The notes below the pieces were generated by a model. That model ran no database searches. It saw only the letters and a list, made by a program, of their open reading frames with translations, and was not told the origin of the DNA. Of a DNA stretch of 64,000 nucleotides, positions 17,109 to 61,653 are shown piece by piece. The translations under genes were made by a program, and so were the position numbers. Origin of the DNA: Pontiella agarivorans (GTDB lineage Bacteria; Verrucomicrobiota; Kiritimatiellia; Kiritimatiellales; Pontiellaceae). The DNA lies in NCBI RefSeq assembly GCF_034531395.1, contig NZ_JARVCO010000010.1:806001-870000 (forward strand), read 5' to 3'. How positions within the stretch are numbered: the stretch's first letter is position 1; every line of letters begins with the position of its first letter.

Positions 17109-19229
17109 ATGAACCGTTTTTTATTCAAGCTGGCCATTTGTGGATGCGGTATTGCCATTGCGGGATCCGCTGAGGCCAAAATGGTAACTTCTCCCGATGG
17201 AAAGGTTTCTCTGGAGATTGCGAATGGGCCGTTTGATCCAACGCCGGAATCACTGAGTAAGATGGAGATTCCTGAATGGTTCAAAGATGCCAAGTTCGGG
17301 ATCTATGCGCATTGGAATCCGCAGAGCGTGGTGGAGAAGAACAACGGTTGGTATGCCCGGAATATGTATATAGAAGGGGACCCTGCTTATAAGACGCACC
17401 TTGAAAAATACGGTCACCCGTCAGAGTTCGGTTATAAAGATATTATTCCGCTGTTTACGGCCGAAAAATTTAACGGTGAGGAGTGGATTAAGCTCTGGAA
17501 ATCGGCGGGGGCAAAATACGCCATCGGATTGGCGACACATCATGATAATTTTGATATGTGGGATTCCAAATATAATCGTTGGAACTCGGTTAATATGGGG
17601 CCGAAAAAAGATATTATGGCGGCCCTGCGTGATGCTGCTGAAAAAGAAGGTATGGTCTTTGGGGTAACCACTCATCTGGAACGGACCTGGAGCTGGTTGC
17701 AGACCAATAAACGGGCAGACACTGAAGGGCCGAAAAAAGGGGTGCCCTACGATGGTAATAATCCGGATTATCAGGATTTTTATCTGCCGCCGGATCCGAA
17801 TGGTGATGACAACCGGCAGCATCCGAAAAATGCTCCCGTTGAATGGCGTATCAACTGGGCGAACCGGATGATTGATTTGATAGATCATTATGCTCCGGAA
17901 CATATGTATGTTGATGGAGCGATACCGTTTCGGGGTGACGACCAAGGCTTTACCGGGCTGGCTGTTATTGCGCATCACTATAATCGAAGCATTCAGCGGA
18001 ACGGTAAGTTAACGGGCGTATTCTGCGCAAAGAAACAGGCTCCTTCTCACGGATATTGGTGGGATGGAGTGGTGACGCAGGATTTTGAACGGGGGCGTGC
18101 CAATGAAATCCAAAAAGACTACTGGCAGACCGATACCTCGATCGGGAAGTGGTTCTGGAGCGGTGATAAACACCGCCCGGCCTCCGTGGTTATTCATGAG
18201 TTTATTGATATCGTTTCTAAAAACGGAAATGTCCTGCTGAATGTTCCGCCGCGTGGTGATGGATCTTTTGATGCAAATGCAGTTGCACTGCTGACCGAAA
18301 TGGGGGCCTGGCTGCAACGTGAGGGCGACGGAATCTACGGGACCCGTCACTGGCTGATCCATGGCGAAGGTCCAAATACTTTTGTTGGGGGCGGTTCGTT
18401 TCAGAAGGATATCACCTATACCTCGAAAGATGTTCGCTATACCCGCAGCAAGGATGGAAAAAATATTTATGCGCATATTCTGGGCTGGGATGAGGACGAA
18501 GATGAAATCTGTCTGCAGTCATTCGCGCCGGGTTATGCCGGGGGAGATATGAAGGTGAAGTCCGTTTCGCTTCTTTCAACCGGGGAAAATCTGACCTTTA
18601 GGAAAACTGCCCGGGGGTTGGAAATTACAAAACCTGTAGAGCAACCGGGACCCTATGCCTATGGGTTGAAAATAGAGACGGCAGATTATTCAAAAAAATA
18701 TGCTGAAACACCATATGATGCTTTCAGTAAACGCGTGGTTCAGCATGACGCGGATATTCCGCTTAAGGTATTTACTGCGCAGATTAAAGGTGAAGGTGCG
18801 CGTTTGCCGTGGATTCGTCGTCATGGTGGTGTATTGGATTCATGGAGTGATGAGCGGGCCTTTCTGGAGTGGGATGTTGTGGTGACGCAGTCCGGCGCAT
18901 ACGTTCCGGAACTGATTTATGAAGATTGTGAGGACTCAGCCCATGCCGTGCTGCAGTTTTCCCGAAAGAGTGTCGAGGGCGTCAGCGATGCCGTACTGGC
19001 CGGTGATGACAAGGGGTTGGATGAGGACGAGGGGTGGGACATTGTTACGGAAGTTCCCGTGGTCTTTAGTCCCGCGGAACCGGGGCAGTTGGTAACGGTG
19101 CTGATGGATCAGGCTGCGCTGCAGGTGACGGCCGGTACCTATCGTATTCGCCTGATTCCCGATCAGGAAAATGTATGGAAAGCGGTGGGTTTTAAGGAAT
19201 TGCACCTGAAGAATAACACGGATGTTTAG
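17109..19229 (+). CDS. GH29 alpha-L-fucosidase, secreted
   Basis: 706 residues. Signal peptide (FLFKLAICGCGIAIAGSAEA) then the GH29 barrel: EWFKDAKFGIYAHWNPQSV, the family start (W/F-x-x-AKFGIF-H-W-G/N); AGAKYAIGLATHHDNFDMWD, the conserved HHDGF-like stretch; and HMYVDGAIPF, where the Asp should be the catalytic nucleophile. VLLNVPPRGDG and the TEMGAWLQREGDGIYGTR stretch are also typical of GH29. About 250 C-terminal residues form a beta domain. It hydrolyses terminal alpha-L-fucose from oligosaccharides. First gene of the operon; the sulfatase start lies 13 bases after its stop. Confidence 0.88.
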   Translation: MNRFLFKLAICGCGIAIAGSAEAKMVTSPDGKVSLEIANGPFDPTPESLSKMEIPEWFKDAKFGIYAHWNPQSVVEKNNGWYARNMYIEGDPAYKTHLEKYGHPSEFGYKDIIPLFTAEKFNGEEWIKLWKSAGAKYAIGLATHHDNFDMWDSKYNRWNSVNMGPKKDIMAALRDAAEKEGMVFGVTTHLERTWSWLQTNKRADTEGPKKGVPYDGNNPDYQDFYLPPDPNGDDNRQHPKNAPVEWRINWANRMIDLIDHYAPEHMYVDGAIPFRGDDQGFTGLAVIAHHYNRSIQRNGKLTGVFCAKKQAPSHGYWWDGVVTQDFERGRANEIQKDYWQTDTSIGKWFWSGDKHRPASVVIHEFIDIVSKNGNVLLNVPPRGDGSFDANAVALLTEMGAWLQREGDGIYGTRHWLIHGEGPNTFVGGGSFQKDITYTSKDVRYTRSKDGKNIYAHILGWDEDEDEICLQSFAPGYAGGDMKVKSVSLLSTGENLTFRKTARGLEITKPVEQPGPYAYGLKIETADYSKKYAETPYDAFSKRVVQHDADIPLKVFTAQIKGEGARLPWIRRHGGVLDSWSDERAFLEWDVVVTQSGAYVPELIYEDCEDSAHAVLQFSRKSVEGVSDAVLAGDDKGLDEDEGWDIVTEVPVVFSPAEPGQLVTVLMDQAALQVTAGTYRIRLIPDQENVWKAVGFKELHLKNNTDV

Positions 19230-19242
19230 TCGGAGGATAATA

Positions 19243-20727
19243 ATGCGCGGGATGATTTATATTTTTGGATGCTTATTGACGATGGGCGTGTTTGCAAAGC
19301 AACCGAATGTGGTGTTGATCATGGCGGATGATCTGAGCCACTACAGTGTGGCGGTTTACGGGTCGAAGACCTATTCGACACCGAATCTGGACAGGCTGGC
19401 GAATACCGGCATGCGTTTTAACGAAGCCTATGCCCTGCCGCTTTGCACCCCGTCGCGTGTGGCAATTATGACGGGTATGAATAACGGTCGGAATTATATC
19501 GGCGGGCATTCGCTCGAGCTCTCGCAGGTCACGTTTGGAGAACTGTTCAGAGATGCGGGGTATGCCACTTGCTTTGCCGGGAAATGGAAACTTTCGGTCG
19601 ATGGATCTACGCCTGGTGATTTCGGCTTCGATGAATATGCAATCACAGAATACCAAGTGAGCCACCCACGATTCAAAAATGCCGTTATGAATATTAACGG
19701 TGAGATCGTGAAGCACACGAAGGGGGAATATGGCCCCGATGTGGCCAATGCATTTGCGCTCGATTTTTTGGAGCGGAATAAGGACAAACCGTTCTTTCTC
19801 TATTATCCGATGATTCTGATTCATGATCCTCACACGCCCACACCCGATTCGCCGAAATACGAGGCGAATGAATATGATAATGCCAATGTGCCGGACATGG
19901 TACATTACATGGATATGCTTGCGGGTAACGTAATTGACCGGTTGGAAGAGCTGGGGCTTCGGGAAAATACACTGGTTATCTTTACCGGCGACAATGGCAA
20001 CAAGAAAGTTAACACCGTTGTGCTTAATGACGGGACCCAATACGGGGGCGGGAAAGGCTGGCTGAAAGATGAGGGCGTACACGTGCCCATGATTGCCAAT
20101 CTTCCGGGGGTTGTTCCGGTTGGAACCAATGACGATCTCATCGATTTTACCGATGTGCTTCCGACGATATGCGACTATGCCGGTATCTCGATTCCTCCGA
20201 CGGTGCCGGTTGACGGCATAAGTTTTCTTCCGCAGATCCTTGGCCGGAAAAATCCGGTGCTTCGTACGGCCATATACGATTGGTATCGGAATACCCCGAA
20301 ACAGGAATTGCAGGAGAGTGCCTTTAACAAGGAATACCGACTGTACAGCAACGGGAATTTTTTCAGTGTTAAAGATGATTTCAAAGAAAAATCCGCCTTG
20401 GCCATTTCCGAGATGACAGAGCGGCAAATGGATATACATCGTATGCTGCAGGCGGCGTTGGATGATCATGCTTTGGTTCCGGTCGCTAAACTGATTCCGG
20501 AAGAACAGTCAGTGAAGATGCATGTGGGGGAACAGTTGCAGCTTGGGATCAAGGTGCTGCCTGAAAACGCGACACAAACCACATTGCGTTGGAAATCATC
20601 GAATGATGCTGTCGTGACTGTAAACAAGTGGGGCCGATTGACTGCTGGTAAAAAAGGAAACGCCGGCATCACCGTTACATCGTTTGATGGGAACAGGAAT
20701 GTATGCATTCCGGTTTCGGTCCAGTAG
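19243..20727 (+). CDS. Secreted sulfatase (S1 family) with C-terminal Big2-like domain
   Basis: 494 residues from the ATG at 19243, which has GGAGG 6 bases upstream and is followed by a signal peptide (IYIFGCLLTMGVFA). Metal site NVVLIMADDL, substrate-site signature LCTPSRVAIMTG with Cys68 to be converted to formylglycine, and KWKLS further on. The last 80 residues (EQSVKMHVGEQLQLGIKVLP ... AGITVTSFDG) match a bacterial Ig-like group 2 domain, unusual on a sulfatase. It removes sulfate esters from an algal-type glycan. A Cys-type sulfatase needs an FGE or anSME maturase, not seen in this window. It resembles the sulfatase at 49321 most closely. Confidence 0.88.
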   Translation: MRGMIYIFGCLLTMGVFAKQPNVVLIMADDLSHYSVAVYGSKTYSTPNLDRLANTGMRFNEAYALPLCTPSRVAIMTGMNNGRNYIGGHSLELSQVTFGELFRDAGYATCFAGKWKLSVDGSTPGDFGFDEYAITEYQVSHPRFKNAVMNINGEIVKHTKGEYGPDVANAFALDFLERNKDKPFFLYYPMILIHDPHTPTPDSPKYEANEYDNANVPDMVHYMDMLAGNVIDRLEELGLRENTLVIFTGDNGNKKVNTVVLNDGTQYGGGKGWLKDEGVHVPMIANLPGVVPVGTNDDLIDFTDVLPTICDYAGISIPPTVPVDGISFLPQILGRKNPVLRTAIYDWYRNTPKQELQESAFNKEYRLYSNGNFFSVKDDFKEKSALAISEMTERQMDIHRMLQAALDDHALVPVAKLIPEEQSVKMHVGEQLQLGIKVLPENATQTTLRWKSSNDAVVTVNKWGRLTAGKKGNAGITVTSFDGNRNVCIPVSVQ

Positions 20728-20786
20728 ATATTTCCAGAGATTGGAAACCTGTTTTTATCATTCATTACTCAATAGGTATTTCTGTT

Positions 20787-23700
20787 ATGACGTATAATTT
20801 ATTAAGAAAATGTTCAGTTGGTTTGGCCGCGTTGGCGTTGTCCTGCAGCGGTGCGGTAGAGATTGAAGTGGATCCAACCTGTAACCGGCTGATTGAGGGG
20901 GGGCACCTTCAGCTGGATCGAACAAAATATTTCGGAATCTGCCGCGGTGCGGCGGGTTTTATGGAAAAGGTCCCGGTTGAAGGAGGAGCGGAGTATCTGC
21001 TGGATGACTTGAATATTGCATTCGGCCGAACATCGGAAGTCTGCAAGCAGTTTTCCCAGGCCCACAAATGGTCAAAAACGCCCGGGGTTCAGGAAGATGA
21101 AGACCGGCCGGGGTATGCTGATCCGGCAACGGTGAAATCGACCGCAATCGATCTGAAACTGGATGAACCCGATGCCATGCAGCACCGGGCGGACCGGATC
21201 CGTACGATTGACGATGGGTTCCACGCTGCCCTGCCGGATTTTATGGAGAAGTATCGAATTGATAAGGTGAAAGAGACGCTTCCGGCGAATCTGGATGCAG
21301 CGACTGAGTACGCGGTTGAATGCCTGAAAGCGATACCGGCATGGAAGCGGCCGGCATTTATGCAACCGATGAATGAGCCGAAGTATCAGATGATTTCCGA
21401 TCCTCATTTTCAACAGTGGCACGTAATGCTCAAGGAGAAGGTTCATGCGGAGGTTCCGGGCGTTATGGTCGGAGGGCCATGCCAGTCGGTAGCCTATTAT
21501 TATAAGAATAATTATGCTCCGTTTACCGGAATGATGAAGCCCTTTATGGATGGAACGCAGGGCAATCTCGACTTTTATGGATTTCATCCCTACGACTATT
21601 TTTCCGGTGATGTTGAGGACTTGTCTAGCGGGTTGCCGATGGAATCTGTTTTAGACCTGCTGGATAATTATTCGCGGATAACATTTAGGAAGCCGGTTAA
21701 ACTTGCGCTGTCGGAAGGCGGTGCAACCGGAAAGAATTTTTATACGCTGTTTGATCCGGCGCGGACGACGGAAGCGTCGCAGGCGGTGCTGGATGCCGTG
21801 GGATCCGTAGAGGATGGGTATGACTATCTGGCGATGTTGAACAATCGATCGCTGAACCGTTTCACCATGACCTGGCTGGATCGCCCGCAAACCATTCTGA
21901 CCCATGTTCCGTTTGTATTGGTTTCCTCGGAGTGGAATGAAAAATATCCGTGGGTACTCTATCGTCGTGAAGGTCAGGTGAAGAGTGGAAAGCATCAGCC
22001 GACGGCCAATTTTGATTTCTATAAACTGTGGAAAGATGTGAAGGGGCGGCGTGTTCATGTGCGAAGCGGATCGCCGGATGTACAGGCCCAGGCATTTGTG
22101 GACGGTTCTACGTTGTATCTCTGTTTGAATAATTTATCGGATGATCGGCAGGAGCTTAATCTTCAGTTCAGTGCCAGGCCGGAACGCATTTCAACGGTTC
22201 GTTATTCCCGCAATGGGTATTTCGGAAAACTGTCTGAAAAGAAATTTAAAAAGCTTCCTTCCGGATTAGTGCTGGAGGGAGATGAGTTTATGATCATCAC
22301 CATGACGTATAACCAACCGATCGTTCCGGAAAAAACAGTGGATGAACAGCTGGTATATGGAGACCGGGTTGTGGAACCGATTCGCGCAAACACGCCGCTT
22401 AATTATCAGCTGAATGTGGAACAGGCAGACTCGGTAACGTATGCCACGTTGCGGATCGGTTTTTCACGTCAGCTCAAGGCGGAGAAAACACCGATTGTTC
22501 TGTTTAACGGGAAGCGGCTGACGGTTCCGATGGAAAGAGCATGGGAAAAACGGAAGCAGGTTAAGGATTATGTTTCATTGAAAATGATTCAGATCCCGCC
22601 CTCGTTGATTCGAGCGGAAAATAGGGTTGAGATTCGTTTCCCGGATGAAGGTGGTTCGGTCGGGTCGGTGGCTTTGCGCATTGGTACGGAAGACGTCGAT
22701 GCACGCCCGGTATATGATGTCCGCGATTTCGGGGCTAAAGGCGATGGCGTATCTTTGGATACAAAAGCGATCCAGAAGGCGATTGATGCTGCAGACCCGG
22801 AGGGAGCGGTTGTTCGCGTAAGTAAAGGATCCTATGTCGTCGGAACGATTAAGCTGAAGAGCAATCTGGAGTTTCATCTGGCGGAAGGGGCAGAGCTTCT
22901 GGGAAGCACCAATATTTTGGATTACGCTAAGGATGTTCAGGTTGCCATTGAGGCTCCTTCTTTCAGTAAATGTGTAATTTATGCAGAAGATTGTGAGAAT
23001 GTCAGTCTGACCGGAACGGGCGAGGTGAACGGACGTGCCAGCTGGTCCTATTTCAGCGGAAAGAATGGTCGGCCGATGCTGATGCGGTTTGTCAATTGCC
23101 GGAACCTGACGTTGAATGATGTAATGCTGCGTAACGCAGGGTCGTGGTGCACCCATATGGTGAACTGTGATGACGTGGTGGTTGATCGTGTGAGGATGCA
23201 TACACGTCTGCTGAAGAATAATGATGGTTTTGATCTCGATGGTTGCAGGAATGTCCTGATTCAAAACTGCGATTTGGTGACGGGGGATGATACGATCTGC
23301 CCGAAGAGTACGAGCAAACGGTTGACTGAGAATGTGACGGTCCGCAATTGCCGAATCAGCAGTCATACAGCGGCATTCAAATGCGGGACCTCTTCGCACG
23401 GTGGCTTCAAAAATATTTCTTTCACGGATTGCGAGATTTATGACTGCCGCATGGGCGTGATTAAATTGTTAATGGTGGATGGCGGAACGATGGAAAATAT
23501 TACCGTTTCAGATCTCACGATGACCAATGTGGAAGGCCCATTGTTTATTCGGCTGGGTAATCGCGGCCGCAGTTATCATAAGGCGACGGAACAGATTTAT
23601 TCTGCAAATGCAACGTCCGAAGGGGCGGCGGTCGGCCGGATTCGAAACATTTGTATCCGCAATATCACTGCAACAGTTACCGGCGACGACAAAACCCGGC

Positions 23701-23999
23701 AGGGCATTATGATTACGGGCATTCCCGGCCATAAAATTGAAAATGTGGTATTGGAAAATATACAGATTGAGTTCACCGGCAATGGAACAGAGGAAGATGC
23801 GGCTAATGTTGTTTTAGAGGACGAAGCGCGCTATCCGGAGCAGCACTTTTTCGGGGTGCTTCCATCCTGGGGGATGTATGCCCGTCACGTGGATGGCCTC
23901 ACGTTGAAGAATGTTGATCTTTCGGTGCGGAATGCCGATCAGCGCAGGAAATTTGTCTGTGTTGATGTAAGTAATTGTACGGGTGACCTGAATCCATAA
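20787..23999 (+). CDS. GH86-GH28 fusion: agarase/porphyranase-like plus polygalacturonase-like
   Basis: 1070 residues from the ATG at 20787, chosen because a signal peptide (NLLRKCSVGLAALALSCSGA) follows. Residues about 25-560 resemble GH86 beta-agarases/porphyranases: FMQPMNEPKY (Glu197, likely acid/base) and KLALSEGG (Glu310, likely nucleophile), followed by a beta-sandwich. At about residue 640 a second catalytic domain starts with YDVRDFGAKGDG, the GH28 signature, with NNDGFDLDG (about 810), TGDDTICPKS (about 832) and KCGTSSHGG, corresponding to the family's Asp and His active-site blocks, on a right-handed beta-helix. One polypeptide would thus combine an endo-acting galactanase and a GH28 hydrolase. 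The open frame extends 28 codons upstream without ribosome-binding site or signal. Confidence 0.72.
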   Translation: MTYNLLRKCSVGLAALALSCSGAVEIEVDPTCNRLIEGGHLQLDRTKYFGICRGAAGFMEKVPVEGGAEYLLDDLNIAFGRTSEVCKQFSQAHKWSKTPGVQEDEDRPGYADPATVKSTAIDLKLDEPDAMQHRADRIRTIDDGFHAALPDFMEKYRIDKVKETLPANLDAATEYAVECLKAIPAWKRPAFMQPMNEPKYQMISDPHFQQWHVMLKEKVHAEVPGVMVGGPCQSVAYYYKNNYAPFTGMMKPFMDGTQGNLDFYGFHPYDYFSGDVEDLSSGLPMESVLDLLDNYSRITFRKPVKLALSEGGATGKNFYTLFDPARTTEASQAVLDAVGSVEDGYDYLAMLNNRSLNRFTMTWLDRPQTILTHVPFVLVSSEWNEKYPWVLYRREGQVKSGKHQPTANFDFYKLWKDVKGRRVHVRSGSPDVQAQAFVDGSTLYLCLNNLSDDRQELNLQFSARPERISTVRYSRNGYFGKLSEKKFKKLPSGLVLEGDEFMIITMTYNQPIVPEKTVDEQLVYGDRVVEPIRANTPLNYQLNVEQADSVTYATLRIGFSRQLKAEKTPIVLFNGKRLTVPMERAWEKRKQVKDYVSLKMIQIPPSLIRAENRVEIRFPDEGGSVGSVALRIGTEDVDARPVYDVRDFGAKGDGVSLDTKAIQKAIDAADPEGAVVRVSKGSYVVGTIKLKSNLEFHLAEGAELLGSTNILDYAKDVQVAIEAPSFSKCVIYAEDCENVSLTGTGEVNGRASWSYFSGKNGRPMLMRFVNCRNLTLNDVMLRNAGSWCTHMVNCDDVVVDRVRMHTRLLKNNDGFDLDGCRNVLIQNCDLVTGDDTICPKSTSKRLTENVTVRNCRISSHTAAFKCGTSSHGGFKNISFTDCEIYDCRMGVIKLLMVDGGTMENITVSDLTMTNVEGPLFIRLGNRGRSYHKATEQIYSANATSEGAAVGRIRNICIRNITATVTGDDKTRQGIMITGIPGHKIENVVLENIQIEFTGNGTEEDAANVVLEDEARYPEQHFFGVLPSWGMYARHVDGLTLKNVDLSVRNADQRRKFVCVDVSNCTGDLNP

Positions 24000-24015: not shown

Positions 24016-25569
24016 ATGAAGAAGTTCGTTGTGTGCGGGATTGCCGCTTTTATGTTGCTGGGCGTTGCTGCGGCAAAGAAACCCAATATTATTTTTCTGA
24101 TTACGGATGATCAGAATCGTGAAACCCTGTCGTGTTACGGAGGCAATGCACTGACCCCGAACATTGATAAGCTGGCGGGTGAAGGCATCCGGTTTACACG
24201 GTTCACCACCTCGTCTCCGGTCTGTACGCCGACGCGCTACACCTGCCTTTCCGGTCGGTATGCCAGCCGGGCCAGAGGGCTGCAGAAAAATTGGAATGAA
24301 GGCGAGTCGATGTCCATTGAGTGGAACACCACGTTGGAACCGGACCTCGTTAATGTTCCGAAGGTGATGAAGGCCAACGGGTATAGAACCGGGATGGTCG
24401 GAAAGTGGCATGTCGGCGGTCTGAATGAGGCGGAAGTTAATAAACTGAAACCTGAATCCATCACAAAAAAATCCCGGTTGACTGATCCGGGCGTGCAGGA
24501 ATTTCTGGAACTGCGCCAGCGGATGCTCTGCGAAACCATGCGGAAATCTCATGGTTTCGATTATGTGTCACGGTTTTATCCGGGTAATGCGCAGCACCGT
24601 CATCTTCCGGAAGCGCTGGATGTTCATAATCTGGAATGGGTGATGGAAGGGGCTTTTGAATTTCTCGATGAGACGCCGGAAGACCAGCCGTTCTTTCTCT
24701 ATCTGGCCACAACAATTTCACATGCCCCGTATCCGGTTTTAGGGCAGGACGATAATCCATATATTTGTGAAGGCGGATTGCTGAAGACCCTTCCGAAGGC
24801 TGGAATGCCTTCGCGAAAAAGCGTATTTGAGCGGGTGAAGGAAGCGGGAACCGATCCGGATCTCGTATGGGCCACCTGGCTGGATGATGCGGTCGGTTCA
24901 CTGCGGAATAAACTGGAGGAGATGGGCGAGCTGGAAAATACGCTGATTATCTATTTCAGCGATCAGGAAGTGGCGGCCAAGGGATCGCTCTATTACAATG
25001 GCGTCGGCTCTCCGACGTTTATTACACAGGTTGGAAAAACGCCTCATGCCGTTTCGGATGCCAATCTGCAGAATGTGGATTTTGCGCCGACGATCTTTGA
25101 TTACTGCGGCATCACGCCGCCGGATGACATGCTTTTGGATGGTCGCAGTTTTATGCCGTTACTGAAGGGCGAAGAGCTGAAGAATTGGAAAAAAGTGCAG
25201 TATTGTGAAATCGGTTATTTCCGCAGTGTTATTACGGATCAGTTTCGATACATCAGTTTGCGTGTGCCCGAAAATCTGCCGGAAAAAGCGGAGCGGATGG
25301 GGGGCATCACCTGGGAGACAAAGGTGACCGAGGTGAATGGAAATCCGCTTAAGAATGTTCCGATGTATGAGCAGTGGCATCGTCGGCATAAAGAAGCCTG
25401 GACGGAAAACTGGTGGGATCAGGACCAGTTGTTCGATTCCCGCAATGATCCTCAGGAATCCAGAAATCTGGCGGATAGTCCGGAATATGCGGCACAGCTT
25501 GAAAAGATGAAATCTCTGCTGAGTGAAGAGCTGGAGCGTTTTCCGTTTTCTTACGGTGAATTTAAATGA
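24016..25569 (+). CDS. Secreted sulfatase (S1 family)
   Basis: 517 residues. Signal peptide (MKKFVVCGIAAFMLLGVAAA), metal-binding NIIFLITDDQ, and SSPVCTPTRYTCLSG with Cys70 as the formylglycine site; GMVGKWHVGG supplies the usual Lys/His pair and YFSDQEVAAKG lies where the second metal-site Asp is expected. It starts 16 bases after the GH86-GH28 gene with GGAAGGG before the ATG. It differs clearly from the sulfatase two genes upstream, so the operon probably removes sulfate from two positions. Confidence 0.87.
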   Translation: MKKFVVCGIAAFMLLGVAAAKKPNIIFLITDDQNRETLSCYGGNALTPNIDKLAGEGIRFTRFTTSSPVCTPTRYTCLSGRYASRARGLQKNWNEGESMSIEWNTTLEPDLVNVPKVMKANGYRTGMVGKWHVGGLNEAEVNKLKPESITKKSRLTDPGVQEFLELRQRMLCETMRKSHGFDYVSRFYPGNAQHRHLPEALDVHNLEWVMEGAFEFLDETPEDQPFFLYLATTISHAPYPVLGQDDNPYICEGGLLKTLPKAGMPSRKSVFERVKEAGTDPDLVWATWLDDAVGSLRNKLEEMGELENTLIIYFSDQEVAAKGSLYYNGVGSPTFITQVGKTPHAVSDANLQNVDFAPTIFDYCGITPPDDMLLDGRSFMPLLKGEELKNWKKVQYCEIGYFRSVITDQFRYISLRVPENLPEKAERMGGITWETKVTEVNGNPLKNVPMYEQWHRRHKEAWTENWWDQDQLFDSRNDPQESRNLADSPEYAAQLEKMKSLLSEELERFPFSYGEFK

Positions 25570-26022: not shown

Positions 26023-26045
26023 AGGAATTGTTTAAGGGAGAGGGA

Positions 26046-27467
26046 ATGAGATCGCTTGTTATTATTCTATTGTATTTCGTTGGGTTCTGCTCTTACGGAG
26101 AGCCGTTTCGTCCGAATGAACGCGTTGCTTTCATTGGCGACAGCATAACGCATGGAGGAAATTACCACGTTTATGTGCAGGCTTTTTATGCGACTCGCTT
26201 TCCCGAACGAAACGTCTCCTGTTTTAATGTCGGAATCAGCGGCGACACGGCGCAGGGCGGATTTCAGCGTGCTTCAAATTCCGGGCATGGAATTTGGGAA
26301 AGTGATGTGCGGATGTATGTTCCGACGGCTGCCACAATTATGCTGGGGATGAATGATGTCGGTGGGGGGCATTTTTTGAGCATGAAAACCCCGGAGGAAC
26401 TGAAGGCGCAAAATGAAAAAAAGCTTGGGGCGTACCGAAAAAACTATGCCGCGCTTTTGGATAATCTCGAAAGACAGGGTATTGATCGAATTACGCTGAT
26501 CAAGTCATCACCTTATGATCAAACCATGGTGAATCCCAAGGCCAAGCAAAACCTGTATCAGTTTGGTATCGGGAAAAACGATGCCATTGTAGCACTGGGA
26601 TTGAATGTGATTGAGGTTGAGTCGGTTAAGCGCGGTTATCCGGTCTGCGATTTCAATACGCCGATGCTTGCGATCAATGCGAAGCAGCAAAAAACTGATC
26701 CGGCGTTTTCAATTATCGGTAATGATCGGATTCATCCGGGGGACAATGGTCAATTTGTGATGGCCTATGAATTTCTTAAATTCCAGGGACTGCAGGGGCC
26801 GATCGCTTCCGTGGAGCTGGATCTTGAAAATAAAGAGCAGCTGCTGGCTCGTAACTGTGTTGTTTCAATAGAGAAGGCGACTGATGAAGAGGTCGTTTTT
26901 GAATACCGGGCCCAAGCGCTTCCGTTTCCGACCAAAGTCTATCAAAATGTAACCGAACTTGTCCCATTTGAATCAGAGTTCAATCAGGAAACTTTACAGG
27001 TTTCTGGTCTGAAACCGGGGACTTACGGTTTGCGCATTGACGACATCGAAGTGGGATCGTTTCGACACGATCAGCTGGAGAACGGTGTCAATATGGCCTT
27101 GTTGTCAACTGCGCCCCAGGTGGTGCAGGCTAATGCGGTATTTGACCTTTGCATGGAGAGGGGCGAACTTTCCCGGAAGATTCGTGCGGTGGTATGGGCT
27201 ACCCGATACCTTGCAAACATCGAGGGATACGATGCGTCTTCGCTGGAGGGAAACTGTTCGGTGATTAAGCAGGTTTTGGCCGGTGATCTTCCTGAGGGAT
27301 TGAGTAAGGCTCCTGCGGGTAACACAGTAAAACATCTCCGGAACTATCTGGAAAATGCGGCGCACTATACACAGAGAATTGAGCAGCTGGATGTCATGAC
27401 CGGACCCATTTATGAAGCCGCGCAACCGAGGCCGCACTCTATTGTGATCGAATGGATCTGTGATTAA
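26046..27467 (+). CDS. Secreted SGNH/GDSL-type hydrolase
   Basis: 473 residues from the ATG at 26046 (GGGAGAGGG directly upstream; a TTG six codons earlier is less likely). Signal peptide (SLVIILLYFVGFCSYG) followed by the SGNH blocks: VAFIGDSITHGG (nucleophile Ser), GISGDTAQGG (oxyanion Gly), LGMNDVGGG (Asn) and NDRIHPGDNG (catalytic Asp/His). The residues after about 260 form an accessory domain I do not recognise. Likely a carbohydrate esterase, for example a deacetylase, acting on the same glycan as the rest of the operon. Last gene of the fucosidase unit. Confidence 0.75.
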   Translation: MRSLVIILLYFVGFCSYGEPFRPNERVAFIGDSITHGGNYHVYVQAFYATRFPERNVSCFNVGISGDTAQGGFQRASNSGHGIWESDVRMYVPTAATIMLGMNDVGGGHFLSMKTPEELKAQNEKKLGAYRKNYAALLDNLERQGIDRITLIKSSPYDQTMVNPKAKQNLYQFGIGKNDAIVALGLNVIEVESVKRGYPVCDFNTPMLAINAKQQKTDPAFSIIGNDRIHPGDNGQFVMAYEFLKFQGLQGPIASVELDLENKEQLLARNCVVSIEKATDEEVVFEYRAQALPFPTKVYQNVTELVPFESEFNQETLQVSGLKPGTYGLRIDDIEVGSFRHDQLENGVNMALLSTAPQVVQANAVFDLCMERGELSRKIRAVVWATRYLANIEGYDASSLEGNCSVIKQVLAGDLPEGLSKAPAGNTVKHLRNYLENAAHYTQRIEQLDVMTGPIYEAAQPRPHSIVIEWICD

Positions 27468-34100: not shown

Positions 34101-35501
34101 ATGAGTGGATTGAATATGAGAAAACGGTTGAGAACAGTTTTGTTGGCGGCTCTTACAGTCGGGGGATTTGTATGGGGAGCGGAGAAGCCCAATGTGGTTA
34201 TAATTTTGGCGGATGATCTGGGTTATGGCGATGTGGGCTTTACCGGCTCAACAGAAATTCCGACACCGAATCTGGACCGAATGGCACGCGAAGGTGTGAT
34301 CTGTACACAGGGCTATGTGACTCATCCGTACTGCGCGCCGACACGTGCGGGGTTAATGTCGGGGCGTTATCAGCAACGATTCGGTTTTGAAGTAAATCCA
34401 GCCTATGACCCGCATAATGCATATGATGGCATTCCAAAAAGCGAAAAAACTATTGCGACAAGAATGAAAGAGGCCGGCTATAAAACCGGCATGGTCGGCA
34501 AGTGGCATTTGGGGGCGCATGCCAATTTTCATCCGAACAATCGCGGATTTGATTTTTTCTGTGGTTTTACCGGAGGCGGGCATGATTATTTCCGCGTCGA
34601 TATGCGCCAGATAGCCGATGAGGGCTACCTCCAGCCAATTGATCGTAATGGGGCTCCTTTAGAAGTGGATGGCTATCTGACCCGTCAGCTGACCGATGAA
34701 GCTATCGGTTTTATAGAACGGAACCATAAATCACCGTTTTTTCTTTATGTGGCTTATAATGCGCCGCATGCTCCTTTGCAGGCTCCGAAAGAGAGTATCG
34801 AAAAATTCAGCCATTTGGATAATCCGCTACGAGCCACCTATGCTGCGATGGTATATGAGATGGACCGTGGAATCGGACGACTGATGGACAGCTTGAATAA
34901 TGCTGGGCTTGGTGAAAATACGCTGGTGTTTTTTCTGAGTGATAATGGCGGGCCGAAAAGTTGGGATAAAAACAAACCCTTTGCGTCCAATGGACCGTTC
35001 CGCGGTCATAAGGGTGATTTGTATGATGGCGGTGTGCATGTGCCGTTTATGGCTTACTGGCCCGGCCGAATAGCTGCGGGACGGGTTTTTGATCAGCCTG
35101 TCGTTTCTTTGGATATTCCCCGGACTGCTGCTGTACTTGCTGGGGCAGACGAATCGGGGTTAGAAGGTCAAAATATTTTGCCGCAGTTAAGTGGAAAAAC
35201 AGAGCGGGCACCGCACGATGCAATCTACTTCCGCCGGCGTAATGGCGTGGCTTGGAGTATTGTATCGGCCAATAAAACCAAGCTCATAAAAAATGATTGG
35301 GATGGGACTGTGGAACTGTTTGATCTTACCTCAGATGAATCTGAGGAGAATAACCTTGTCGGACAGCAGCCTGAAAAACAGGCGGAGCTTCTGAAAAAGT
35401 GGAAAAAATGGAATGAAAAAAATATCGATTTCCAGTTTTCAGATTTCCACCCCTATCACAAACAACTGGATGAGTTTTATAAAACGATGCCATCAAAATA
35501 G
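34101..35501 (+). CDS. Secreted sulfatase (S1 family)
   Basis: 466 residues. Signal peptide after a basic start ([21 protein letters not shown]), metal site [14 protein letters not shown], formylglycine motif [18 protein letters not shown] with Cys78, [10 protein letters not shown], and FFLSDNGGP with the second metal-site Asp/Asn. This ADDLGYGD type is the commonest S1 form in marine degraders. AGGAAGG precedes the ATG. The LacI-type regulator gene follows directly. Confidence 0.9.
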
Positions 35502-35540
35502 AGGGTGCAGCTACTGAAAACGAGTCCGAAGCAAGCTATC

Positions 35541-36614
35541 ATGAACCCAAATGCGACGATGAAAGATGTGGCGAAGGCAAGCGGGGTTTCGTATCAGTCG
35601 GTAAGCAGGATCTTAAGCGGAGGGGCGAATCTGCACTCTCCGACCACCGTCCGGCGTGTTGAAATGGCTGCAAAAAAACTCGGCTATATTCCCAATCTGT
35701 TTGCCATAGGACTTCAGGGTCGAAAGACGCGCTCGGTTGGTATAGTGATTGATCCGTCTAAGCAGAGTTTCACAGGAGAAATATTCCGTGGAATTTATGA
35801 TATTTTGATGGAACGCAACTATCTGCCGATTCTGTTATTCCATAGTTTGGATGATCCGGTAGATGCTGTGGTTCGGCGATTGGCGGCGCGGCGGGTTGAA
35901 GGATTTATCATTCATCCAAACCTGAAGCAGGTTCAAGACGTTGCTGATTCCGTGCGGAAGTATCGTTTGCCGGTTATTTGTGTTGATGAATATCTTTCTA
36001 ATGATTGGAACACGGATTTTGTGGGAACGGACGATGCTTTGGGAAGTCGGAAGGGTATTGAGCACCTCCTCAGGTTGGGGCATCGCCGTTTCGCCGCTTT
36101 GTTCATCGATAAACCAAATTTGAAGGTGCGTTTCGAGGCGGTTGAGGAGACTTTGACTCACTGTGAAGAGAAGTGTTTTCTTCAGAGGATTGACCGGTGG
36201 GACTTTGATGATAATTCCCGGAATCAGAAGAGGATCCGAAAAATACTTCAACAGCAAGCGGCCCCGACAGCTATTGTGGCCTGCGGCGACTTTATGCTTC
36301 CCCCAATCTATAATGCGATCCATGAACTGGGTTTAAGAATACCTGAGGATATATCCGTTCTCGGCTTCGGCGATACAAACTTTTCTCGTTGTCTTGTTCC
36401 TCCTGTAACTACTCTCAAGCAGGATGCCTACGGAGTGGGAAGCAAAGCGGCTGAAATTTTGATTGACCGTCTGAATAATCCGGAAGAATCACCCGTTGTG
36501 AAGTCCATTCGTTTCTCTCCCTCCTTACTTGTGCGTGGTTCGACTGCGCAACCGAAGTCCCGGAACAGAACAAAAACGAACGGAGATCTGGAATTACAAC
36601 ATCTGAATTCCTGA
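35541..36614 (+). CDS. LacI/GalR-family transcriptional regulator
   Basis: 357 residues from the ATG at 35541; a GTG at 35505, four bases after the sulfatase stop, is an alternative with AGAGG close by. Helix-turn-helix: TMKDVAKASGVSYQSVSRIL (about 6-25), hinge HSPTTVRRVEMAAKKLGY, then the periplasmic-binding-protein-like sensor domain (RSVGIVIDPSKQ, RVEGFIIHPN, DISVLGFGDTNFS). The operon with a sulfatase suggests that it senses a sugar released from the sulfated glycan and controls its own operon. The palindrome at 34026 lacks the usual central CG of LacI operators, so its binding site is uncertain. Confidence 0.85.
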   Translation: MNPNATMKDVAKASGVSYQSVSRILSGGANLHSPTTVRRVEMAAKKLGYIPNLFAIGLQGRKTRSVGIVIDPSKQSFTGEIFRGIYDILMERNYLPILLFHSLDDPVDAVVRRLAARRVEGFIIHPNLKQVQDVADSVRKYRLPVICVDEYLSNDWNTDFVGTDDALGSRKGIEHLLRLGHRRFAALFIDKPNLKVRFEAVEETLTHCEEKCFLQRIDRWDFDDNSRNQKRIRKILQQQAAPTAIVACGDFMLPPIYNAIHELGLRIPEDISVLGFGDTNFSRCLVPPVTTLKQDAYGVGSKAAEILIDRLNNPEESPVVKSIRFSPSLLVRGSTAQPKSRNRTKTNGDLELQHLNS

Positions 36615-36904
36615 AGAAAAAGGGCCGCTTAATCGCCCTTGTTCCGCGTCATAATGTAAGTGATCAATTTCCGTTATCACTGGTCAGAACTGCTCGGAGA
36701 AAAGGACAACGGTGAGATTCTGGAATTCCTGTGTTCCTGAAATCGTATTATATGTTTTAAAATCGTTCATTTTTTTTCAGTGATTGGCATCTATACAACA
36801 GTGTGATGATAAGCATCACGACAAGGAGGTTCCGGCGGCGGATTTATCAGGAGTCCGTTGCCGGTCGACGTTGTGTTTCTGTTGCCAAGTGGAAGGATTT
36901 TGAT

Positions 36905-38779
36905 ATGCAAAAAAACAAAAAACAATTTGGAGTGAAATCGTTGCTGGTAGGACTTTTGACGGTTGTGGGGCCGGCCGGGGCAATGGAATACCATGTGGCA
37001 TTAAATGGAAATGATTCGGGGCCGGGAACGGAAAGCAAACCTATGCGAACCATTCAGGCCGCCGCAAATCTTGCGATGCCCGGCGATATTATTACGGTTC
37101 ATGAAGGCACCTACCGCGAGCGTATTGATCCGCCGCGCGGCGGAACATCGGATGAGCAGCGGATTGTGTATCAGGCTGCCCAGGGTGAAAACGTGACGAT
37201 TACGGGGGCAGAAGAGGCCAAGGGATGGGTCCGTCAGTCGGGCGATGTCTGGCTTTTGTATCTGCCGAATGATTATTTTGGTGCGTATAACCCGTTTTTC
37301 ATTCCTCTGGAAGGGGACTGGTTTTTTCCGCTGAAACAGGATCATAAAGTCGGTGCGGTATACTTTAATGATAACGAACTGAACGAAGCCGCCGCCCTTG
37401 AAGATCTATATGGAACTTGCCATGGGAAAAAATGGTATTCCAAGTCCGATAATCAGGGTACCTGGATCTGGGCTAACTTTACCGGTATGCCTTCCGGCGG
37501 CAATATTGATCCCAATACCTCCAATGTCGAGATCAGCAAACGTCGCGCAGTTTTTTATCCATCCAAACCCAATATCAACTATATAACCGTACGCGGGTTT
37601 AAACTGACGAAGGCCGCCAATCCCTGGTCGCCGCCGACCACCGAGCAGATTGGTCTGATCGGTACCGGCTGGAGCAAGGGTTGGATTATCGAAGATAACG
37701 AAATTACACGGGCTCGCTGCACAGGGTTGACGCTGGGTAAAAACTTTGACCGGTTTGATGGGCTGATGGATTATGGTTACAATGCGCATTACCAACTGGT
37801 GGAACGTACGATTGCCCGTGGCGATTGGAATAAGGATAATGTGGGCGGTCATCTGGTGCGGAATAATAGGATTGCCTATTGCGGCCAGTCCGGCATCGTT
37901 GGAAGTCATGGTGCAGCATTTTCGACGATCACTGGAAATGTCATTCACGATATCTTCATGAACAAAAGTTTCGAGGGGTTTGAGCAGGCCGGCATTAAGT
38001 TTCATGCGCCGGTTGATACGCTCATCAGCAATAACCTGATCTATAATTCCGGTTGCAAAGGCATCTGGCTGGATTGGATGTCGCAGGGCGCACGCGTGAC
38101 AGGGAATATCCTCTATAATCATAAACAAATGGATCTGTTTGTTGAAGTGAATCACGGTCCACTGTTGGTGGATAATAACATTATGCTGTCAGATGAATCC
38201 TTAAGGGATGCTTCTCAGGGCAGTGCATTTGTGCATAACCTTTTTGGCGGAAAAGTGATTCAACGCCCAGAGCACGAGCGTTTGACTCAGTTTTTCAAGC
38301 CGCACTCCACGGAGCTGGTCGGCCGGTCCAAAATATTTGATGGTGATGATCGTTTCTATAACAATATTGTGATGGAAGATTCCGGGTTACGCAGTTACAA
38401 CAATTGTAAAAATAAGATTCAGATGGGGGGAAACCTTTTTCTCTACAAGGCGGTTCCTGCGAATAAGCTGGAGAAAAATGCTCAGATTGATCATGAGGCC
38501 GATACGCGTTATCGGATTCGGAATAACGGGGGTAAGGTCTTTCTTGAATTAGATCTTAATGCTGATTGGGCGAAAGGTCAGAAGCGTGATTTGGTTACCA
38601 CGAAAATGCTTGGTAAAACGGAAATAACTCATCAGGCTTTTGAGCACGCTGATGGCACGCCGGTATCGATTGATACTGACTTTTTCGGTGCACAGCGCAA
38701 TGTTGAAAACCCATTCCCGGGCCCTGTTGAGCTATCCGGTTCAGTAGAACGGATTCAGATCTGGCCTGCCCAGAAATAA
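36905..38779 (+). CDS. Secreted GH120-type beta-helix glycosidase (beta-xylosidase family)
   Basis: 624 residues from the ATG at 36905 (AAGGA upstream, signal peptide LLVGLLTVVGPAGA follows); the frame is open to 36803 without a signal. Right-handed beta-helix with the GH120 pattern as I remember it: GGTSDEQRIVYQA, NPFFIPLEGDWFFP, RAVFYPSKPNINYITVRGFK and WSKGWIIEDNEI. Catalytic candidates: Asp in GIWLDWMSQG (nucleophile), Glu in FEQAGIKFH 30 residues before it and Glu in DLFVEVNHG 24 residues after it; this spacing is close to that of the characterised Thermoanaerobacterium beta-xylosidase. Likely exo-acting on xylose-type residues, but a related sugar is possible. Confidence 0.72.
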   Translation: MQKNKKQFGVKSLLVGLLTVVGPAGAMEYHVALNGNDSGPGTESKPMRTIQAAANLAMPGDIITVHEGTYRERIDPPRGGTSDEQRIVYQAAQGENVTITGAEEAKGWVRQSGDVWLLYLPNDYFGAYNPFFIPLEGDWFFPLKQDHKVGAVYFNDNELNEAAALEDLYGTCHGKKWYSKSDNQGTWIWANFTGMPSGGNIDPNTSNVEISKRRAVFYPSKPNINYITVRGFKLTKAANPWSPPTTEQIGLIGTGWSKGWIIEDNEITRARCTGLTLGKNFDRFDGLMDYGYNAHYQLVERTIARGDWNKDNVGGHLVRNNRIAYCGQSGIVGSHGAAFSTITGNVIHDIFMNKSFEGFEQAGIKFHAPVDTLISNNLIYNSGCKGIWLDWMSQGARVTGNILYNHKQMDLFVEVNHGPLLVDNNIMLSDESLRDASQGSAFVHNLFGGKVIQRPEHERLTQFFKPHSTELVGRSKIFDGDDRFYNNIVMEDSGLRSYNNCKNKIQMGGNLFLYKAVPANKLEKNAQIDHEADTRYRIRNNGGKVFLELDLNADWAKGQKRDLVTTKMLGKTEITHQAFEHADGTPVSIDTDFFGAQRNVENPFPGPVELSGSVERIQIWPAQK

Positions 38780-58662: not shown

Positions 58663-58881
58663 GGCTACCTTTCATCACGGGGATATAAACTCCCGCTGTT
58701 GTTATTAAAATCAAAGCGCGGACTTTGTCCGGTTTTCGCTTTCAGGGCAAGGTGAAACAGCTGAAAGAGAATGAGGGGCGCGCTGTGCGGGATCCGCATC
58801 GGTTTTTGCAGGATTCGCATTGCGAAAGAGGGTGCGGGCAGCGTCTGTTCTGCAATACCCTTTGAATCAGAGAGGCGGGCA

Positions 58882-61653
58882 ATGAATATGATGAGTAAGA
58901 TACTTTGTTTGGTGGTAGCGGTTTCTCCGGTTTTGTGTCCGGCGATCCACAGTATTGAAACCGGTCAGACGATCATGAAAGTACGGTCGGCGACGGCGGT
59001 AAACGGATCCTTTATTGTGGGCAGCAGTTATGAAGGAGATCTGCTGGCCTATACCTACGATGGTTCCAGACTTTGGAAAACAGCGCTTTCCGGCGGGATT
59101 ATGAATAACGACCTGTGGTGTTCTGATTTGGATGGTGACGGCATTGATGAGGTGCTGGCGGCCAGTTCCGACGGATCGGTTTACTGTGTGAATTATAAGG
59201 GAGCTTTGCTGTGGCGGTTTCAGCCGAATGAGGTGCCGATGATTTCGGTTTGTACGGTTCGTGATTCCTCGGGTGCTGTTTATGTGGCCTGCGGGGGAAA
59301 TGATAAAAATTTTTATTGGCTCTCCGCAGAAGGGGAGCTGCTGAAAACGGTGCCGTCGGCTGGATATGATTCGGTGATTACGCCGAATAAAAAGTGGATT
59401 GATGACGGCACGCTCGAAAAGAATGTGCATGTTGTGAATTTCCTGCGCCCGGTTCGGCAGGCGGATGGTTCTGAAGTTCTGCTGTTGAATGCAGTGCTGA
59501 CCAATGCGGATCAGAATTCGATGCTTTTCCGGTTTCGGCCTCTGGAAGTGCGGCCTTTCAAGGCGCGTAAGCTGGGGTATGGATACGGCCCCGTTGGTGA
59601 TTTGCGGGTGAATGGCCGGGTGCTTTTGGGAGGGACGTCGGGGATGAATAAGACCCTTGATTTCTTTCGTTATGATCTGGACGCTGAGAAAGCTGAAAAA
59701 CTGAATCTTCCGTCTACGAAAAAAAAGCCGGGTTTTGGCTATCGTGTGGTTCAGGTTGTTCCGCTTTCGAAGGAACACGGATTTGAATATCTTGTCAAGA
59801 TTGGATCGGAGATGCTGCTGGTGCCGGATTCAATGGATGTGAACAGCGCGGAACAGATTCGTTGCAAATATTCATTCAATGATATGTGGAAGGATTCGGT
59901 ATCCGGAAAACTGCTGTTGGCCAGTGCTCAGAGCGGAGGAAGCTGTATTCATGTTGTCGATCTGACTTCCAGGGATTGGAAGTCGGCGTATGAGCAGCTT
60001 GATCCGCCGGGAACGATTCAGGCGGTTCTCGACAATACTGCTGTGCTGAAAAAACAGCTGTCCGCGTTTAAAAAACCAAGTTGGGAGCGCGATGTCGTTA
60101 CAGCCTATCTGATGTCGCCTCCGAAGCCCTCGGCGAAGACTAAAGCATTCCAGGAAAAGTATAGTAATCCGAAGTTTCTCGGCTATGTGTTTATGAAGGG
60201 GGCGGAGGACTGGGATCGTTCCGGATTGGGATGTGCGGCCTTTGAGCAGGCGCGCGACGGCCGCAAATCCTATACCCTTTCACAGGATGAAATTATCAAA
60301 AAAGCCGGGCAGGGGATGAATGAAAACGGCCTTTGCATGTGGGGCGGACACGGGGTTGATCCGTTTTATTACAATCCGGAAACCCTCTGGAAAATCATGA
60401 AGGGGACCCGCGGGAAAAAGTCCGTATTCATCTGGCCGGAACTGACGATTCTGCATAAGAAGGAATTCCCGTTTGCAGTGGAGCACCTTTTTGCTCCCTT
60501 TGCCGAGAATGCCCGGAAATATAACTCCTCTTTATATATTCGCAGTAAGCATAACTTCTGGCTGGGAAATATTTATCTGCCGGAATGGTCGCGTTTTCTT
60601 TCCGGGGAGTTTGCCGATGTGGCTGTTCCGTCTATGGAGGAGACGCAGGATCAGGCGCAGGACCTCAGTCTGGCCGGGCGTCTGGGTTTGTGGAGCAGCG
60701 GCGTATTTGATGACTGGGGAACGCGCTGTGCGCGGGATAATCCGAGTTTCACGAGGAACCGGCAGTTTTCGCATCAGGAGCTGCCGAACCATTTTCTGCG
60801 CAATGCGGTGTATCATATTGCCTATGGTGCAACGTACATTAATAACTTTACGGTGAGTTCGGCGTATTCCGATTATATGCATGTTTTGTGGGAGCTGATC
60901 GGAAGCGGAGCACTTTATATTCCGAAAAGGGAAGAGATCGTCAGTTTTAATCCGGTGCATTTAAGCATGACGTCGCCGGATGAGCGCTATATGCGGGAGG
61001 CCCATACAACGACGACGAGTATCCGTTATGATGAACGGTTTCATCCGGAAAATCCGTATGTTTTCGGTCGGCTGGACGGTGCGTGGTCGGGGGCGCGGGT
61101 CACGGACTGGGATTTTTCAAATTATGCCGCCGGCGTGAAGGATCGTCGTCAGAATTTCCTGGCCCCGTATCCAAACGGAATGGTGCTGATTACGCCGCCG
61201 CAGAAAGGCGTTTTTTCGGATCCGGATGCCCCGCGCGGTAAACTGGCAGACCATCTCCATCCCATGTATGAAAACCTGCTGGAGGAATATGTCACCAATG
61301 GGCGGAACTATTTTTCCAGCGATGGGAAAGAGACCTTTTCTGCAGATCATTATGCTGAAACGGTAAAGACGCAGATTGAGGCCGGAGCGGAAAAAATGCC
61401 GCTGACGGTATCCGGCGATGTGGCCTGGGTGGTTGCGCAGACTGCGCCGAATCATCTGCGCCTGACGCTGATTGATGGCGGTTATCTGAATCCTTCCGAA
61501 AAGACCGCCCATCTGAAATTCCATACGGTGAGCCCGCTGAAGATTACCGACCTGCTCAGCGGTGAAACCTTTACTCCGGAAAAGGTGACGGAAATTGATG
61601 TGCCCTGCGGCCTTTTCCGTTTTATCGATATCGAACTCGGTGAATCGTTATAA
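58882..61653 (+). CDS. Large secreted beta-propeller enzyme, possibly lambda-carrageenase-like (GH150)
   Basis: 923 residues from the ATG at 58882 (GAGGCGGG upstream; signal KILCLVVAVSPVLCPAI); the frame is open 37 codons earlier. The first 350 residues are a PQQ/FG-GAP-like propeller (GDLLAYTYDGSRLWK, CSDLDGDGIDEVLAASSDGS, GALLWRFQP). The remaining part looks like a TIM-barrel hydrolase (KGAEDWDRSGLGCAAFEQAR, MWGGHGVDPFYYNPETLWKI, SVFIWPELTILHK, VPSMEETQDQAQDLSLAGR) ending in a beta domain. An N-terminal propeller joined to a barrel-like part in a 900-950-residue secreted protein is the layout I remember for lambda-carrageenases; this is unverified. Candidate acids lie in WPELT and SMEETQD. 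Confidence 0.6.
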   Translation: MNMMSKILCLVVAVSPVLCPAIHSIETGQTIMKVRSATAVNGSFIVGSSYEGDLLAYTYDGSRLWKTALSGGIMNNDLWCSDLDGDGIDEVLAASSDGSVYCVNYKGALLWRFQPNEVPMISVCTVRDSSGAVYVACGGNDKNFYWLSAEGELLKTVPSAGYDSVITPNKKWIDDGTLEKNVHVVNFLRPVRQADGSEVLLLNAVLTNADQNSMLFRFRPLEVRPFKARKLGYGYGPVGDLRVNGRVLLGGTSGMNKTLDFFRYDLDAEKAEKLNLPSTKKKPGFGYRVVQVVPLSKEHGFEYLVKIGSEMLLVPDSMDVNSAEQIRCKYSFNDMWKDSVSGKLLLASAQSGGSCIHVVDLTSRDWKSAYEQLDPPGTIQAVLDNTAVLKKQLSAFKKPSWERDVVTAYLMSPPKPSAKTKAFQEKYSNPKFLGYVFMKGAEDWDRSGLGCAAFEQARDGRKSYTLSQDEIIKKAGQGMNENGLCMWGGHGVDPFYYNPETLWKIMKGTRGKKSVFIWPELTILHKKEFPFAVEHLFAPFAENARKYNSSLYIRSKHNFWLGNIYLPEWSRFLSGEFADVAVPSMEETQDQAQDLSLAGRLGLWSSGVFDDWGTRCARDNPSFTRNRQFSHQELPNHFLRNAVYHIAYGATYINNFTVSSAYSDYMHVLWELIGSGALYIPKREEIVSFNPVHLSMTSPDERYMREAHTTTTSIRYDERFHPENPYVFGRLDGAWSGARVTDWDFSNYAAGVKDRRQNFLAPYPNGMVLITPPQKGVFSDPDAPRGKLADHLHPMYENLLEEYVTNGRNYFSSDGKETFSADHYAETVKTQIEAGAEKMPLTVSGDVAWVVAQTAPNHLRLTLIDGGYLNPSEKTAHLKFHTVSPLKITDLLSGETFTPEKVTEIDVPCGLFRFIDIELGESL

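Follow-up and report, generated by a model that had tools for sequence, protein, structure and literature searches.

Among the described systems that come closest to the locus reported here are those for red-algal galactans. The porphyran system of B. plebeius contains GH86, GH16, S1_11, GH29 and GH2 members, and BpGH29 is the alpha-L-galactosidase of this pathway (PMC12316285). In Zobellia galactanivorans, the genes ZGAL_3629-3638 encode two GH28s, a GH29, a GH2 and S1_28 and S1_30 sulfatases, and respond to kappa- and iota-carrageenan with strong induction (PMC5698469). Pontiella agarivorans NLcol2T, in turn, grows on agar, agarose, carrageenan and Porphyra, and not on L-rhamnose or Macrocystis pyrifera fucoidan; GH86 is listed among the most abundant families of the species, and GH28 is absent from the main text of its description (PMC10880615).

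We analysed 64,000 nucleotides of the P. agarivorans genome (here named the window; contig NZ_JARVCO010000010.1, positions 806,001 to 870,000; coordinates below count from its first letter unless a locus is named). One of its genes encodes a single chain of 1070 residues in which a GH86 enzyme is joined to a GH28 enzyme. The open frame spans 20703 to 23999; translated from 20787, it begins with the signal-peptide-like N-terminus MTYNLLRKCSVGLAALALSCSGA, followed by a whole GH86 (residues ~24-632), a linker of about 10 residues and a whole GH28 beta-helix (residues ~643-1070). An earlier note, made from the letters alone, had proposed such a chain, and Pfam, PDB sequence matches and AlphaFold/Foldseek agree with it; its coordinates, frame and residue numbers were correct, with E197 and E310 exactly where it had put them; the former lies in an NEP motif and the latter in an SE motif. 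The domain search and the structure prediction that it had suggested as checks placed both halves inside their families and recovered both folds, with the catalytic residues present in the aligned families. More specifically, every Pfam match on the chain exceeds its curated cut-off: Porphyrn_cat_1 (residues 431-528, 1.1e-18), BPA_C (543-632, 1.9e-14), Glyco_hydro_28 (725-1003, 4.1e-20) and also Pect-lyase_RHGA_epim (644-694). The features of the gene are as follows.

20787..23999, + strand: GH86-GH28 fusion enzyme, stop codon included (open frame, Pfam and PDB matches for both halves)
20787..20855, + strand: probable signal peptide, residues 1-23 (read by eye; low-confidence start of the model)
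20856..22076, + strand: GH86 TIM-barrel catalytic region, residues ~24-430 (alignments to 8h97, 5ta1 and 4aw7; fold match to BuGH86)
21375..21377, + strand: Glu197, acid/base position of GH86, within the NEP motif (kept in 42 of 44 GH86 sequences)
21714..21716, + strand: Glu310, GH86 nucleophile position (conserved in 44 of 44)
22077..22370, + strand: porphyranase beta-sandwich domain 1, residues 431-528 (PF18206, 68.2 bits, cut-off 27)
22413..22682, + strand: beta-porphyranase A C-terminal domain, residues 543-632 (PF18040, 53.9 bits, cut-off 26.2)
22683..22712, + strand: short linker, residues 633-642, without remnant of a second signal peptide
22713..23996, + strand: GH28 right-handed beta-helix, residues 643-1070 (PF00295, 72.6 bits, cut-off 22.9; pLDDT 94; best Foldseek matches GH28)
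23223..23225, + strand: Asp813 in the NNDG motif, GH28 catalytic Asp (invariant, 59 of 59)
23286..23291, + strand: Asp834 and Asp835 in the GDD motif, GH28 catalytic pair (invariant, 59 of 59)
23457..23459, + strand: Val891 in place of the Arg of the galacturonate-binding motif R-x-K, whose Lys (Lys893) is kept (alignment with the RLK of 3jur)

The barrel of the GH86 half was recognised through PDB sequences, and Pfam covers the two GH86-specific beta-sandwich domains. Residues 36-647 match the GH86 agarase 8h97 (5.9e-43), followed by 5ta1/5ta0 and 4aw7, and the catalytic Glu pair of the family, E197 and E310, is present. The acid/base role of Glu197 is one that we take from established GH86 knowledge. 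In the PDB sequence alignments, Glu310 lies opposite a Glu in 5ta1 and a Gln in 5ta0; as 5TA0 is the E322Q nucleophile mutant of BuGH86 (PMC5849685), this places Glu310 at the nucleophile position. The AlphaFold2 model of this half (29 sequences) has a mean pLDDT of 86.4, and Foldseek on the N-terminal part put BuGH86 and Aga86A_Wa first (TM 0.82 for 5ta1), the next family following far behind. With BuGH86, Aga86A_Wa and BpGH86A (5ta1, 8h97 and 4aw7; beta-agarases and a beta-porphyranase), the chain shares the TIM barrel, the two beta-sandwich domains, the two catalytic Glu and a near full-length match, whereas its structure-aligned identity to them is only 20-23%, a Gly follows its nucleophile and the GH28 domain is extra. 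No compared sequence exceeds 34% identity to the GH86 half. The Gly (Gly311, 21717-21719), which may change the -1 subsite, is replaced by Tyr, Gln, Phe or His in almost every other sequence of the comparison.

The C-terminal half matches the GH28 enzymes 5olp (1.2e-29) and 3jur (1.2e-28) in the PDB sequence search. Its AlphaFold2 model (38 sequences) has a mean pLDDT of 94.1, with the whole helix intact, and GH28 exo-galacturonidases came first in Foldseek for the C-terminal part (TM ~0.7). The half resembles the GH28 exo-enzymes (galacturonidase 5olp, the Thermotoga exo-polygalacturonase 3jur and the Yersinia exo-polygalacturonase 2uve) in its beta-helix, its three Asp and its sequence and fold match, but it differs from them in an aligned identity of 20-22% and in the replaced Arg of the R-x-K motif. 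This Arg reads galacturonate in polygalacturonases; here the motif is absent, Val891-Ile-Lys893 standing against R-L-K in 3jur. In the 59-sequence alignment, most of the wider GH28 clade carries Gly or Ala at position 891, the Arg having been lost clade-wide, so that the change is old and common to the clade and no mark of the fusion protein. The loss of the Arg as proof of a new specificity was dropped for this reason. The two halves were modelled separately, since GH86-only rows aligned poorly in the combined 61-sequence alignment, and the models carry no mutual orientation; the alignments behind them were built without the Persicobacter plasmid rows described below.

The GH86-GH28 chain was met at this gene only. 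Among the 43 genomes of the order that were searched, it is absent from all 42 besides the window's own; none was found in ten related genomes searched in full, it was not the best match in any of 388 genomes from the phylum, for each of which two candidates were scored, and in the related loci inspected both halves lie in one frame at the window's own gene alone. A whole-protein scan gave just two distant GH28 loci in genome contigs and no match in viral contigs, and phage records gave no full-length match, the five matches listed covering the GH28 half only. In the literature naming both families, judged largely from titles and abstracts, no published GH86-GH28 chain was found.

In the tree, standalone GH28s from the genus and from the phylum form a group with the GH28 half (support 83/95); its branch is longer than theirs, and it shares 55-62% identity with the nearest of them. 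Nearly every near standalone homologue has its own signal peptide or lipobox before the same core; as none is left between the halves of the fusion, a read-through artefact is ruled out, and GH86 and GH28 are joined as a genuine fusion. Clusters around the nearest relatives hold GH29, GH95, GH115, GH116, GH31, esterases and sulfatases, and the other members of the wider clade sit in fucosidase- or uronate-type clusters. The genomes that host two of the nearest relatives (G001 and G009) have no GH86 match, so agar degradation is not the only setting of the clade.

GH28 is found in other fusions as well. In a same-genus genome, one 966-residue frame joins a GH28 to an S1 sulfatase (L121 1293-4190, - strand, G009:C217); as in the window, the partner of this GH28, which belongs to the same wider clade, is an enzyme from a pathway for sulfated glycans, but it is a sulfatase there and GH86 here. 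A GH28-GH32 fusion (L117 3261-5960, + strand, G391) and a SASA-esterase-GH28 fusion (L115 2418-5372, + strand, G233) were also observed, both in further genomes from the phylum. GH28 has thus been fused to other carbohydrate enzymes repeatedly, with GH86 as a further partner that was met once here.

The fusion gene stands in a tight co-directional, operon-like run, GH29-S1-GH86/GH28-S1, with the following neighbours.

17109..19229, + strand: GH29, probable exo-alpha-L-galactosidase, first gene of the run (Pfam, PDB matches)
19222..20727, + strand: S1 sulfatase with C-terminal Big_2 domain and CTPSR site, overlapping the GH29 stop by 8 bases (Pfam)
24016..25569, + strand: S1 sulfatase with CTPTR site, 16 bases downstream of the fusion gene (Pfam, PDB)
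26028..27467, + strand: SGNH/GDSL hydrolase, possible last gene of the run (Pfam)

The best PDB matches of the GH29 are 7snk (305 bits) and the exo-alpha-L-galactosidase 7ljj (300 bits), against 218.5 (9lxl) and 215 bits (4ni3) for the best listed fucosidases. A predicted exo-alpha-L-galactosidase-type GH29 therefore lies close to GH86, as in the porphyran degradation system. Like that of B. plebeius, the window combines GH86 with GH29; unlike it, the window adds GH28, which is not mentioned in PMC12316285, and its neighbouring S1 sulfatases match 9fo1 and 9fvt better than 7snj, the S1_11 L-galactose-6-sulfatase. The Zobellia locus is alike in family content, with its two GH28s, GH29 and S1 sulfatases in a red-algal galactan regulon, but its GH28s are unfused, GH2 is present and no GH86 is listed.

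Elsewhere in the window, a whole three-domain lambda-carrageenase is encoded at 58771-61653 (+ strand; CGLA_M, 557 bits), so that the window also serves carrageenan breakdown. A beta-helix protein with a GH120 insertion domain (36803-38779, + strand) lies beside a LacI-type regulator (35505-36614) and a sulfatase (34101-35501), the latter close to the exo-4S-kappa-carrageenan sulfatase 6prm (327 bits). About 17-40 kb past the window, four GH88/GH105-type genes (L126-L129, G000:C10:886742-910715) possibly form a cluster for a uronate polysaccharide, e.g., ulvan.

A comparable cluster was found in another phylum, on plasmid 3 of Persicobacter sp. JZB09 (L114, CP012861.1), where a GH86 is followed after 37 bases by a GH28, then by a sulfatase, a second GH28, a sulfatase-Big_2 and two GH29s. 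GH86, GH28, GH29 and the S1-Big_2 sulfatase are thus common to both, and the latter is 37% identical to that of the window over its length, with the same architecture. In Persicobacter, however, the genes are separate, and the GH28 next to GH86 falls in a different clade. It is 33% identical to the window GH28, the distal one 40%. The adjacent GH28 was considered as the unfused counterpart of the window GH28 and rejected, as the tree groups it with L003. What the two have in common is therefore a recurring gene set and not the exact GH86/GH28 pair. L003 (G000:C12:1076600-1077967), the second GH28 of P. agarivorans, belongs with L050, L051, L068, L043 and L122 to a second GH28 clade, with the motifs NNGDGLDFDGC, TSDDSICLQ and GIRIGLLS, whose members come from Pontiella genomes rich in GH86 and from galactan-type clusters of Persicobacter.

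Together with the Zobellia locus (ZGAL_3631/3632, PMC5698469), the Persicobacter cluster means that the association of GH28 with red-algal galactans is not new. In its interpretation, the earlier note was right about the GH86 and GH28 assignment and the intact active sites; the novelty lies in GH86-GH28 as a single chain.

From the folds, the conserved sites, the fusion itself and its context, we infer, with a probability of roughly 0.55, that the protein is a secreted bifunctional galactan depolymerase of P. agarivorans in which both halves act; activities, substrate and cooperation are worded conditionally in what follows. The GH86 half would be an endo-acting enzyme with the retaining two-Glu mechanism (E197, E310) that cuts the beta-1,4-galactosidic backbone of an agar/porphyran-type red-algal galactan. 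The GH28 half would use the inverting three-Asp mechanism (D813, D834, D835) to hydrolyse an alpha-linked residue, either in this galactan or in material attached to it; the residue is probably galacto-configured or uronic and placed at the end of a chain or at a branch. Being on one chain, the second cut could act where the first exposes substrate, and the neighbouring sulfatases and the GH29 alpha-L-galactosidase-like enzyme would trim the oligosaccharides.

A role on red-algal galactan is likely from the context, as it fits the growth of the host on agar and carrageenan (PMC10880615), the GH29 and two sulfatases of the run and the similar gene set of Persicobacter. The Zobellia locus is counted in favour of the depolymerase as well. 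Counted against the depolymerase are the GH29, GH95, GH115, GH116, esterase and sulfatase clusters of the nearest GH28s, two of which come from genomes lacking a GH86 match, and the other clade of the Persicobacter GH28 next to GH86, as well as the low identity of the GH86 half to the sequences compared and the Gly after its nucleophile. To our knowledge, no GH28 has been shown to cut a red-algal galactan. A new GH28 specificity in the fusion, as suggested by the earlier note, is possible from the context, but the motif loss that would speak for it is clade-wide. Its most specific form, in which the GH28 half hydrolyses alpha-linked, possibly sulfated, galactose or anhydrogalactose and one chain cuts both the beta and an alpha linkage of the same polymer, we consider rather unlikely.

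It is possible, if doubtful, that the GH28 half has instead remained specific for uronic acids, as a BT4146-like enzyme of the alpha-galacturonidase or rhamnogalacturonidase type, and that its target is a part of the algal wall that contains uronate, the fusion serving to open mixed wall polymers together. Indeed, galacturonidases are the best fold matches of this half and BT4146 rhamnogalacturonidase is its best NCBIfam match, but the score of the latter is far under the curated equivalog cut-off (269 versus 500 bits), and Val replaces the Arg that would bind galacturonate. The GH95, GH29, GH115, GH116 and sulfatases beside the closest standalone GH28s would suit uronate-containing sulfated glycans, and one uronate isomerase and five GH88/GH105 matches were found in the P. 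agarivorans genome. The same genome, with 16 GH86-type matches, has two GH28s only and no PL1-type pectate lyase, which counts in favour of a galactan. The missing PL1 also speaks against the uronic-acid reading, as do the failure of the strain to grow on L-rhamnose (PMC10880615) and the reported inability of the related P. desulfatans to use pectin.

That the GH28 half has little or no catalytic activity and binds or anchors for GH86 is very unlikely, given that all three catalytic Asp are present and invariant in 59 sequences and the helix is whole, even if accessory carbohydrate-binding-type domains do occur on GH86 chains here, such as the Malectin domain fused to a GH86 in the same genome (L005 757-4173, + strand, G000:C2). 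Finally, an assembly or reading artefact, in which a frameshift or the loss of a stop had merged two genes, is hardly conceivable: the full-length fusion is seen in one genome only, but its frame has neither stop nor frameshift, the linker counts 10 residues, the second signal peptide is gone, and the locus lies well inside a 1.28 Mb contig of a published assembly at 593x mean coverage (PMC10880615).

In conclusion, GH28s recur in the red-algal galactan gene clusters of Zobellia, Persicobacter and Pontiella, and the fusion to GH86 ties GH28 to a substrate pathway in a strain that is in culture and whose growth on agar and carrageenan has been measured. A single fusion protein makes the question of the GH28 substrate testable, one half at a time. 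If the GH28 half does cut galactan, the range of the family would reach beyond pectin.
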